From Promethearchaeota archaeon (GTDB taxonomy: Archaea > Asgardarchaeota > Lokiarchaeia > Sigynarchaeales > SOKP01): DNA of 11,114 bases. Both the position numbers and the translations under genes were made by a program. Shown in pieces: positions 7,230 through 11,114 of the stretch; positions within the stretch are counted from its first letter, which is position 1; each line of letters starts with the position of its first letter. Where the stretch lies: positions 1 through 11,114 of the forward strand of contig WJIN01000053.1 in the NCBI GenBank assembly GCA_014730295.1, in the 5' to 3' direction. Below the pieces are notes generated by a model. It ran no database searches and was not told the origin of the DNA. It worked only from the letters and a program-made list of their open reading frames with translations.

Positions 7230-8219
7230 TCATAGCTGGGATTCTTCCAGACCTTTTATTAAGCAAGTGATTGTACGATTTATCGGAACTTGATCTTCAT
7301 CTTCGCTATATGTAACTATTCTTCCATTAATAAAATCAATTTCCGTCTTCTTTCCTTTCAATACATCCTGCAGCATTGAATTGATATTATCTTTCGTCTT
7401 TCGTGCTACATCAAAACATACTTCCACATAATCTTTGTTAGTGAGATTAATATTTCTCTTCCGAGCAATTACTAGCGCTTCTTCTATGGCATCTCGAATA
7501 AGATTTCTTAACTTCTCCCTTTTAATTAATTCACCATTTTTGAGACGAGTTAAAGCCCCAAATGCGTTAATTCCTATATTTACAAAGATCTTTTCCCAGC
7601 AATTCCGTATAATATCGTCCACAATCTCCGTTTTAATACCCGCCCTTGACATTAATTCTGCCAAAAGACCCAAATCTTCAATGGCACCTTCTTTTTCGCC
7701 TTCTGGAATATCATCCTTAAAAGGAAATCCTATCCTCGTAAAACCTATACCCGTATGCTTCACTTTACCCGGGTGAGGAATTAAGGCTCCGTTAGATGTA
7801 ATTCCACGAATAATTTTATGTTTGGAGATAAAATTTTTAACAATATCCTCATTTCCAATTCCATTTTGGAGAATAACTACCCAATCCGTTCGTTGAATTA
7901 ATTCCTGATATTCTGATAATGCTTCAATTATATCATAGGTTTTAGTCGTTAGAAAAAGGAATTTAAAGCTATCTCCTGAATTATGTTTCAAATAGTCGAG
8001 AATATTAGTATACCCATTTATGTTGTCAATGAGTATTTCTTCTGATCCTTTTTCTAATATTAGCCCATTTTCATTTATTGCCGTTATATGTGCCTCTCTG
8101 CCAAAAAAGTTTATCTCGATTTTATATTCTTCCGAAATAATATTCGCTAAATAACCTCCAAACAAACTACCGATTGATCCTGCTCCAATAAACGCTATCC
8201 GTATTTTTATTGTATTCAT
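7230..8219 (-). CDS. panE: 2-dehydropantoate 2-reductase (ketopantoate reductase)
   Basis: Reduces ketopantoate to pantoate with NAD(P)H for coenzyme A synthesis. The N-terminal Rossmann loop GAGSIG is at residues 12-17. The C-terminal helical domain holds the family's catalytic block, with K210 of CWEK matching the catalytic lysine, N214 and N218 in the following helix, S281 near the substrate site, and E293 in TEIDFINGRIV. Its 329 residues are slightly longer than bacterial PanE. It is the second gene after the DUF72 gene on the minus strand, 30 bp apart with a hairpin between. Archaeal ketopantoate reductases are known targets of CoA feedback. A sister ApbA-family dehydrogenase of other specificity cannot be wholly excluded, but the nearby 4-phosphopantoate--beta-alanine ligase supports this call. 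Confidence 0.88.
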   Translation of the reverse strand: MNTIKIRIAFIGAGSIGSLFGGYLANIISEEYKIEINFFGREAHITAINENGLILEKGSEEILIDNINGYTNILDYLKHNSGDSFKFLFLTTKTYDIIEALSEYQELIQRTDWVVILQNGIGNEDIVKNFISKHKIIRGITSNGALIPHPGKVKHTGIGFTRIGFPFKDDIPEGEKEGAIEDLGLLAELMSRAGIKTEIVDDIIRNCWEKIFVNIGINAFGALTRLKNGELIKREKLRNLIRDAIEEALVIARKRNINLTNKDYVEVCFDVARKTKDNINSMLQDVLKGKKTEIDFINGRIVTYSEDEDQVPINRTITCLIKGLEESQL

Positions 8220-8232
8220 AATCCAATTTCAC

Positions 8233-8247
8233 CGTCTGGATCAGACG
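8233..8247 (-). repeat. intercistronic hairpin between the DUF72 and panE genes
   Basis: CGTCTG and CAGACG form a perfect, GC-rich 6-bp inverted repeat with a 3-base loop. It begins two bases after the DUF72 stop codon and 13 bases before the panE start. There is no T tract after it, so it looks more like an mRNA-stabilising or translation-tuning stem than a terminator. Confidence 0.5.
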
Positions 8248-8249
8248 TT

Positions 8250-9194
8250 CTAATTTTTAAAAAATTTATCTAAGCTCATTTGGCCTTTAGAAACCGTTCC
8301 CGAATCTTTTTTCACTTCTAAGATATCAATATCTCCGGGTCTATTTCGGGGGTGTATGTTTAGTTTATCCATCATCATTAATGAATTCTTAGGAGCATAT
8401 CCCGAAAAATGATTGTTAAAATATATCCCCACAATTTTAGCAGTATCAATAACAGCTTCCACCAACTTGCCATATTTATCGATTTCTTGCTCGCTAAAAA
8501 GATAATCAAACCAAATTCTCTCCCCAAAACCGTGAAATCTAATATAGGCGAACTCTTGATTGGTGATATCCATTCTGGGAGGAAGCGTTGGTTCTATTAC
8601 CGCACAATAGGTTAAAGCATTCTCTCTCAGATATGCAAATGTTTCCTCATCCATCCACGATTCATTTCTGAATTCTACGGCTAAGTTATATGGCGCATCA
8701 CGATAATCAATTGGCCATTCATTTATGAACTCTTTTAAATTGGAAAAATGCTCATCTTTATTAAATGAGGGGGGCAACTGAATGAGGAATGCCAATAATT
8801 TTCCCGATTGAATTAAAGGCTCCATCACCTTCAAATAGACCTCTAAATGATGGTAGCATTCAGTCAGATCTAACTTATTCTCATGAGTGATTACACGGGG
8901 AATTTTTGCCGTAAATACAAAATCATCAGGAGTCCGTATCGCCCACCCCTTCACGATCCTCTTCGAAGGAATATTATAGAAGGTGGTATTAATTTCATTC
9001 GTATAGAAAATCTTGGAATAATAATTGAGAAAATCTTTACTATCTAGGCTCTTAGGATAAAACGGTCCGACCCACTCCTCATAACTCCAGCCCGAACATC
9101 CTATATATGTTCTCTTTGACATTTTGTTTAGTTTATTAACTGCTATTTCACTATAAGATATGTTGCCAAAAAAAGATATTTTTTCAATATCCAT
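8250..9194 (-). CDS. DUF72 (YecE-like) TIM-barrel protein with a C-terminal PIP box
   Basis: Belongs to DUF72/YecE (COG1801), a TIM-barrel family of unproven function. Family blocks are GCSGWSY (residues 32-38), NTTFYNIPS (69-77), AVEFRNESW (172-180), YIRFHG (217-222) and YFNNHFSGYAPKNS (258-271). The C terminus ends QMSLDKFFKN. Residues Q305, L308, F311 and F312 give an exact PCNA-interacting QxxLxxFF pattern after a Lys/Ser/Gly-rich linker, suggesting recruitment to the sliding clamp. The start is uncertain: M25 (position 9122) gives the more usual N terminus just before RTYIGCSGW, while the longer form has a TATA-like TTTTATCC about 22 bases upstream of position 9194. It heads a two-gene unit with panE. 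Confidence 0.88.
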   Translation of the reverse strand: MDIEKISFFGNISYSEIAVNKLNKMSKRTYIGCSGWSYEEWVGPFYPKSLDSKDFLNYYSKIFYTNEINTTFYNIPSKRIVKGWAIRTPDDFVFTAKIPRVITHENKLDLTECYHHLEVYLKVMEPLIQSGKLLAFLIQLPPSFNKDEHFSNLKEFINEWPIDYRDAPYNLAVEFRNESWMDEETFAYLRENALTYCAVIEPTLPPRMDITNQEFAYIRFHGFGERIWFDYLFSEQEIDKYGKLVEAVIDTAKIVGIYFNNHFSGYAPKNSLMMMDKLNIHPRNRPGDIDILEVKKDSGTVSKGQMSLDKFFKN

Positions 9195-9811: not shown

Positions 9812-11114
9812 GTTGCCAATACGCCTCTCTATTTGGTGGATATCTAGGCTTGGGCACCGATGAAGAGCGTGACAAGCTGCGATAAGCTCGGGTTAGTCGC
9901 ACGTAGACGTTGACCCCGAGATTCTTCAATAGGACATCCGCTCGCGGCTCAATAATCCGCGAGATTCTCCTGTGAGAAGGGGAACCCCGAGAAGTAAAAC
10001 ATTTTAGTATCGGGAGGAAGAGAAAACAAGAGTGATTCCGTGAGTAACGGCGAGCGAAAGCGGAACAGATCAAACCGAATCCCTAGAGAAATCTAGTGGA
10101 AATGTGGTGTGTGGGCCTCGTACGACCTAACCATTGAAAGTGAATACCCCTGGAAAGCGGAGCCATAGAGCGTGATAGCCGCGTAACTGTAAATTGGAAG
10201 GTTGCTGCGAGTGTCCCCGAGTAATGCGGGATAGTTTTCTCGTGTGAACATGCCAGATACACATTGGCAAATCTAAACATGTCCCAAGACCGATAGCGTA
10301 GTAGTAGCGTGAGCGAAAGATGAAAAGAAACCCGGAAGGGCCGTGAAAAGCGCTTGAAACCAAATAGTTTAGTAGGGAAGCGGCGTGGAAGGACAGATTC
10401 TCCGAGAATGAGTCCTGGTGACGGGATATCATATTGGAGAGGACTATCGTCGCTTCATCAGTCTGGAATCATTGGCCAGGGAGTTTGCAGTAGAGGCGAG
10501 CTTAAATGTTTACCAACATGGAGGCAAAGGGAAACCGATATTCCTGCAGCCTAATTATCACATTAGATCGACCTAATTCTTTCGGTGCGGTTTTGCCGTT
10601 TCCGCAAAGGATTAGTGACATCTTCTAAGGAATTAGGTCAGAGGAACGGTCTTAAAGGGCCTAAAGTCGCTGCTGCAAGACCCGAAGCCGGTCGATCTAT
10701 TCCTGGTTAAGATGAAGTCGTTCGAAAGGACGATGGAGGTCTGCACCAGTGCTGACGTACAATTCGCTTGGATGAACTGGGAATAGGAGCAAAAGGCTAA
10801 TCTAGATCGGTAATAGCTGGTTCCTTCCGAAGTTGGTCTCAGCCAAGTCTCAGACGAGGTTGCCAGTGGCGTAGAGCACTAACTGAGGTGTCTGGAGGAG
10901 AGATCCTTCACCCCTCTCTTAAACTCCGAAGCTGCTGGCGCTATAGACTCTGGGAAACGGGTTGGCGGGCGTAAAGTCCGTCGCCGAGAAGGGAACAACC
11001 TAGACTTGGGTTAAGGTCCCAAAGTGCAGGTTAAGTGTTAAACGAAAGGGCGTCATATTTCTAAGACAGCAAAAGGATAGGTATAGAAGTAGCCACTTCC
11101 TAACGAGTGTGTAA
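9812..11114 (+). rRNA. 23S rRNA, 5' part (runs off the window)
   Basis: The 5' domain is recognised by GGTGGAT at 9835, GCGATAAGCTCGG near 9880, GTAACGGCGAGCGAAAGCGG near 10043 and CGTGAAAAGCGCTTGAAACC near 10342. Further on are GACCCGAAGCC near 10679, TAATAGCTGGTTCCTTCCGAAG near 10812 and GGTCCCAAAGTGCAGGTTAAG near 11014. The last bases match the stretch just before the E. coli ~1100 region, so roughly the first third to two-fifths is present. The exact 5' end is estimated from the spacing to GGTGGAT in E. coli. No 16S gene or tRNA precedes it within the window, so it is unlinked from 16S on that side. Open reading frames inside it are artefacts. Confidence 0.95.
10570..10639 (+). other. extra hairpin in 23S domain II (expansion-segment-like)
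   Basis: A perfect 10-bp stem, GACCTAATTC (10570-10579) with GAATTAGGTC (10630-10639), encloses a second stem, TGCGG/CCGCA (10586-10590/10602-10606). It falls between the GGGAAACCGA block (10528) and GACCCGAAGCC (10679). In E. coli the corresponding interval is only a few tens of bases, so several tens of bases are extra here. The position is near eukaryotic ES9. Confidence 0.6.

Follow-up and report, generated by a model that had tools for sequence, protein, structure and literature searches.

A Lokiarchaeial DUF72 protein with a putative PCNA-binding tail: a candidate clamp-recruited DNA-lesion-processing protein

DUF72 beside described clamp clients

The DNA repair family EndoMS/NucS ends in a PCNA-interacting peptide (PIP) motif in archaea and in a clamp-binding C-terminal motif in Actinobacteria, and clamp binding stimulates the enzyme (excerpt of PMC8228993). 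Here we describe a DUF72 gene in an 11,114-nucleotide stretch of DNA from a Promethearchaeota archaeon (contig WJIN01000053.1, assembly GCA_014730295.1; the whole stretch is called the window), whose product ends in a candidate PIP box. EndoMS/NucS is the closest precedent for the pattern of DUF72 tails reported below, although it has a RecB-type nuclease domain rather than a TIM barrel, and its enzymatic activity has been proven. Near-identical C-terminal PIP letters are carried by FEN1 from this archaeal family, an XPG-family nuclease.

The first DUF72 structure was solved in 2004, and the family has no assigned function. Solved members include Tm1631 (1VPQ) and EF0366 (1VPY, 1ZTV), for which no clamp link was found in the literature searched; nor did we find there a publication linking DUF72, YecE, YunF or COG1801 to a sliding clamp, most subscription journals lying outside that literature. 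No metal has been reported in DUF72 crystals, and an earlier computational proposal, made by modelling, has DUF72 acting on DNA lesions.

The gene is an open reading frame (ORF) on the minus strand at positions 8250-9194, encoding 314 residues as called. The product belongs to DUF72 and is of the Lokiarchaeota type: a Pfam profile search matched PF01904 at residues 46-276 with 200.5 bits (cut-off 25.3, E = 4.5e-59), and the closest named locus, at 87% identity, is a contig of a Lokiarchaeota metagenome-assembled genome. Because relatives among the best 120 of 602 database matches are mostly 287-297 residues long, and because residues 1-26 of the modelled protein had a predicted local distance difference test (pLDDT) score below 50, we prefer M25 (nucleotide 9122) as the start. 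The gene was probably called 24 codons too early (9120-9194), and its likely coding sequence is 8250-9122.

The model, a fold search and conservation delimit a TIM barrel at residues 28-280 (8355-9113), with conserved polar residues E67, N/D69, K97, Q139, E174, R176, R219, H221, N260 and N261. A linker whose sequence diverges among relatives (residues 281-304; 8283-8354) leads to the PIP-box-like peptide QMSLDKFF (residues 305-312; 8259-8282), picked out by conservation, likeness to FEN1 and the model, in which residues 308-313 form a helix. The peptide is followed, at 8250-8258, by K, N and the stop codon (8250-8252); in translation, the minus strand from 8250 to 8291 reads SKGQMSLDKFFKN and then stop. 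The PIP box is defined as Qxx(aliphatic)xx(aromatic)(aromatic), and the bacterial clamp-binding motif as Q(aliphatic)x[L/M][F/L], with QLxLF among the strongest versions (excerpt of PMC11139829). By pattern, QMSLDKFF at residues 305-312 of 314, in the terminal segment, fits the first of these. The initial annotation had described a protein ending in QMSLDKFFKN with an exact QxxLxxFF; this was borne out, the eight-residue motif lying two residues from the end.

The tail in archaea

An Asgard search with the window protein covered 147 genomes that share at least its phylum, of which 135 gave a match. Within its family, 44 of 65 genomes held an orthologue of the main clade (match at E < 1e-100), and all 44, each distinct, were fetched. 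We scored their C termini with a strict PIP pattern, Qxx[LIM]xx[FY][FYLIM] at most 10 residues from the stop, and alongside it with a looser "core" pattern. The tail motif exceeds chance expectation: the strict pattern occurred in 44/44 orthologues and in 0/89 other ORFs from the Asgard loci (non-overlapping, 150 residues or longer), while shuffling the last 30 residues of the same proteins produced it at a frequency of 0.0017 (0.17%). A tail missing or scrambled in close orthologues, which the initial annotation had named as the result that would count against it, was seen in none of the 44.

Among the 120 nearest database proteins introduced above, one of which is the window's own, 110 fitted the strict pattern and 119 the core. 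The Q is invariant by construction in the 110 strict matches, since the pattern fixes it. The fourth place was L in 109 of them. At the eighth, F (48) and L (44) predominated over I (12), M (5) and Y (1), so that the window, with its exact FF, represents one variant of several. Across 14 distant archaeal DUF72s, hand-picked and mostly tailed, identity to the window was 41% in the barrel, 8% in the linker and 54% in the motif, where Q was retained in 93% and L in 100%.

In its letters, the window tail resembles the PIP box of FEN1 from the same archaeal family. A profile search found XPG_I (FEN1) in all 12 genomes selected from the family, and the top-scoring FEN1 of each ends QVSLDNFFK, QTSLEQFFK, QVSLDDFIK or similar, with F, L or I likewise at the place of the second aromatic. 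The sequences fetched were the best gene per genome and two further XPG-family loci, L207 and L208, which resemble a paralogue (the former fitting the pattern loosely, the latter not fitting); eight more XPG matches were left out. A matrix built from the 12 FEN1 tails scored the window tail at 17.8 bits. Scores of at least 8 bits were reached by 41/44 orthologues, and by 20/33 other Asgard proteins, 2/37 Thermoproteota proteins and 1/5 paralogues from the groups described below; among the 89 background ORFs no tail reached this score, and one protein did so when its whole length was scanned. PCNA_N was above cut-off in 11 of the 12 family genomes, which are relatives of the source, and in one of the 11 only weakly; the clear matches end in FLAPRVEE or nearly so, and the weak one ends differently. 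With the motif kept in 44/44 orthologues, a FEN1-like tail and PCNA_N in 11/12 of the relatives' genomes, the proposal in the initial annotation that the tail is a PCNA-binding motif is supported as a reading of the sequence, and in our judgement the tail very probably binds the clamp.

Tails were more variable outside the main clade. Of the standalone DUF72s fetched from other Asgard archaea, 11/33 fitted the strict pattern and 25/33 the core. Among the eight that lacked the core, L054, L056, L070 and L086 retain an end of the SLDKW or RLDNW type without Q, L084 has the motif just beyond the 10-residue limit, L057 stops early (QTRLL), and L090 and L005 are without any motif; L005 is a distant second DUF72-like ORF, the main ORF at that locus running off the contig and open ORFs having been excluded. 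A second Asgard paralogue clade fitted in 5/5 rows, a sample from several dozen matches. In Thermoproteota, matches were found in 175 of 200 genomes and rows were chosen mostly from the better-scoring ones; among DUF72s there without a recognised SWIM part, 3/37 fitted the strict pattern and 7/37 the core, three of the 37 (L003, L099 and L120) being SWIM-type proteins that the filter missed. SWIM-fused DUF72s had the tail motif in 0/33, and a Nitrososphaera DUF72 (L183, in host sequence adjoining a provirus) ends SRITDFI, with no Q. This sampling of archaeal tails covered Asgard archaea, Thermoproteota and Nitrososphaera.

Two Thermoproteota proteins, L158 and L161, end DQVKLF and NQEKLF, intermediate in shape between the PIP box and the beta-clamp motif. 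Many archaeal DUF72s (many of L002-L007, L099-L102 and L123-L150) are about 390-480 residues long and have no clamp tail, ending in a segment that contains CKH and that, by eye, we take to be SWIM-like. Several of these long loci hold a second DUF72-like ORF nearby.

The tail in bacteria

DUF72 was detected in 9 of 14 named control genomes, and among 5426 complete E. coli genomes, 5375 matched E. coli yecE, 5088 of them over at least 80% of the gene's length. Relatives of the Priestia megaterium protein (the best 120 of 3,789, Bacillota where named) all end in a pentapeptide of the beta-clamp type, as scored with the wider pattern Q[LMSAIV]x[LMIF][FL]: QLDLF in 74, QLDFF in 16, QLGLF in 10, QLNLF in 8 and others in 12. 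The published motif as written, with L at position 2, fitted 97/120, or 100 if M is counted as aliphatic; the remaining 20 were QLDFF (16), QLDIF (3) and QLIDF (1). The core PIP pattern occurred in 2/120 of these proteins and the strict pattern in 0/120. Single proteins end QLSLF in Paenibacillus, QMDLF plus two residues in Listeria, QLKLF in S. aureus and QLDLF in E. faecalis.

YecE of E. coli, Salmonella and two Klebsiella ends QQSSLF, a weaker fit in which position 2 departs from the motif definition, and that of Aeromonas ends QGVLPF. Relatives of a Desulfosarcina DUF72 (the best 120 of 2,797, Desulfobacterota where named) had the clamp motif in 0/120, the strict PIP pattern in 0/120 and the core in 1/120. 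By eye, no such tail was present in single DUF72s of Devosia, Gemmatirosa, Deinococcus, Nonomuraea, Oceanithermus, Rhodanobacter and Paraburkholderia. We therefore rejected the idea that a tail is common to all DUF72 proteins, given the Desulfosarcina-type counts, its absence from the SWIM-fused proteins and its low frequency in Thermoproteota.

Where a tail is present, its sequence mostly appears to match the type of clamp in the host, and in some lineages it is absent. On a quick tree of 98 barrels, from which the tail columns had been removed, the PIP label changed 12 times and the clamp-motif label three times, starred branches forcing at least five of the PIP changes; tails have therefore been gained or lost repeatedly. 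The beta-clamp motif of Bacillota DUF72s occupies the same C-terminal position, which suggests that recruitment by a clamp is a property that recurs in the family.

In some enterobacterial copies of yecE (L193, H125 and H129), a site-specific integrase gene lies ahead of the gene or overlaps it, and the match lacks its initial residues, as would be expected had an element been inserted at the 5' end of yecE.

Possible function and gene neighbourhood

We read DUF72 as a clamp-recruited DNA-lesion-processing protein, with a probability of about 0.7. As a sliding-clamp client, it would dock its C-terminal PIP box in the hydrophobic pocket of PCNA, which would deliver the TIM barrel to newly copied or repaired DNA, where the barrel would most likely recognise or process a lesion; in Bacillota, the beta clamp would bring the barrel to DNA via the motif at the same C-terminal place. 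At the level of sequence, the predicted binding to PCNA is strongly supported by the presence and conservation of the motif, by its resemblance to FEN1 tails and by the match of motif type to clamp type in archaea and Bacillota. A role in DNA maintenance is somewhat less likely than clamp binding, and a lesion endonuclease activity, or at least lesion binding, is a weaker prediction, with about even odds on lesion cutting itself. The strictly conserved polar pocket, we infer, looks catalytic rather than merely structural.

Only DUF72 matched the protein at E <= 0.001, with no Pfam match to the endonuclease IV/apurinic-apyrimidinic (AP) endonuclease family 2 or to UV-damage endonuclease (UVDE). 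In the fold search the barrel fitted AP endonuclease and UVDE about as well as it fitted MbnB and sugar epimerases; identity to the barrels of the AP endonuclease AsfvAP and of SacUVDE was 8% and 12%, and endonuclease IV itself was absent from the best 50 matches listed. This tie between the two repair endonucleases on one side and epimerases and MbnB on the other led us to reject the fold search as proof of a nuclease function.

Three tail-less DUF72 genes, one on a Desulfosarcina plasmid and two on viral contigs, adjoin Y-family and DnaE polymerase genes (L177:4298-10073, with LexA; L222:3959-8746, where the region upstream of DUF72 lay outside the scan; and L223:3253-8808, with an S24-type regulator). 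These clusters resemble the ImuA-ImuB-DnaE2 SOS mutasome cassette in bringing lexA, a Y-family (IMS) protein and DnaE together. They differ from it in that DUF72 stands at the place that ImuA usually occupies in the gene order, and the likeness concerns tail-less relatives only, not the window gene. Scanned with a simple pattern, the three cassettes showed no clamp motif in their Y-family proteins and one QAELF in one DnaE. An alignment search of viral contigs returned three DUF72s; one of them, L224, is located near terminase genes, outside such a cassette; no viral-contig DUF72 close to that of Desulfosarcina was found. In published work, DUF72 genes and SRAP genes are enriched near polB2, for DUF72 "to some degree". 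The role in DNA replication or repair that the initial annotation had inferred from the tail gained from the Bacillota pentapeptide, from the polymerase and LexA neighbours of other DUF72s and from the polB2 enrichment, and gained nothing from the neighbourhood in the archaeal family.

In that family, PanE adjoins DUF72 in 43/44 main-clade loci (L009-L052), with RimI often next and PPS further on. In the window, the PanE/ApbA ketopantoate reductase gene, identified by Pfam and locus comparison, is the next gene downstream (7230-8219, minus strand). Operon support within the window was rejected, the conserved neighbour having no repair link.

Several of these results weigh against a clamp-recruited, lesion-processing DUF72. 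The neighbourhood in the archaeal family offers no repair link, PanE being without an obvious clamp connection; the fold fits epimerases as well as repair enzymes; and motif and clamp type match imperfectly, the beta-clamp pattern occurring in 1/33 other Asgard and 1/37 Thermoproteota proteins. The first two would suit a metabolic TIM barrel of the sugar isomerase or epimerase type, whose tail is incidental or serves another partner, but archaeal tails of the PIP type and Bacillota tails of the QLDLF type would be unexpected in such an enzyme, as would lexA and polymerase gene neighbours, and we regard this explanation as improbable. The second aromatic of the motif is replaced by L, I or M in 61/110 strict matches, and the tail is absent or altered in several lineages, as might be expected of a chance match or a lineage relic that does not bind the clamp. 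However, 44/44 against 0/89 is hard to reconcile with chance, the FEN1 matrix recognises the tails, FEN1 itself has F, L or I at the same place, and the motif persists while the linker diverges; we consider this the least probable of the explanations.

Given that the tail binds PCNA, the barrel might instead be a non-nuclease subunit, for lesion recognition, shielding or regulation, of a translesion or fork-protection complex with, for example, Y-family, DnaE or PolB2 polymerases. The clustering of tail-less DUF72s with a Y-family protein and DnaE, the joint enrichment with SRAP near polB2 and the crystals without a reported metal favour such a subunit, which overlaps our preferred reading except in its chemistry; the catalytic look of the conserved pocket argues against it, and on balance we doubt it while taking it seriously. 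Because short PIP peptides at a protein's end are able to compete for PCNA, the tail could also have a negative use of the clamp, keeping other clients off it, or could mark the protein for degradation, instead of recruiting an enzyme. Neither use would need a strictly conserved, catalytic-looking barrel, and both seem very unlikely.

On the strength of these archaeal and bacterial tails, the widespread DUF72 family probably works on DNA at sites of replication or repair. The fitting type of clamp tail in both archaea and Bacillota makes this family of unknown function directly testable in B. subtilis (YunF-DnaN), and makes the earlier proposal of a DNA-lesion role worth testing. A broader idea, which we put forward tentatively and at somewhat less than even confidence, is that DUF72 (YecE/YunF) is a cross-domain lesion enzyme recruited by the host's clamp through repeatedly acquired peptides (of the PIP type in archaea and QLDLF in Bacillota) or, in tail-less forms, by way of an SOS mutasome operon. 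If true, a DNA repair or damage-tolerance activity that is common among prokaryotes would so far have gone unrecognised.

In the window (positions 7230-9194) as in the related loci, a putative clamp client is stably linked with PanE, a gene of the coenzyme A pathway. The flanking genes of the window are of archaeal type, encoding aRF1, an NcsA/TtuA-like protein, a RimI-like acetyltransferase and archaeal 4-phosphopantoate-beta-alanine ligase. An rRNA search placed an archaeal 23S rRNA on the plus strand, starting at 9812 and continuing past the window end (9812-11114); no 16S rRNA or tRNA was found within the window, and the rRNA genes may therefore be unlinked. In a Rhizobium phage of 206 kilobases, the DUF72 gene (L187:2992-4249) overlaps a gene that has no Pfam match and is annotated as a DNA recombination-mediator protein.
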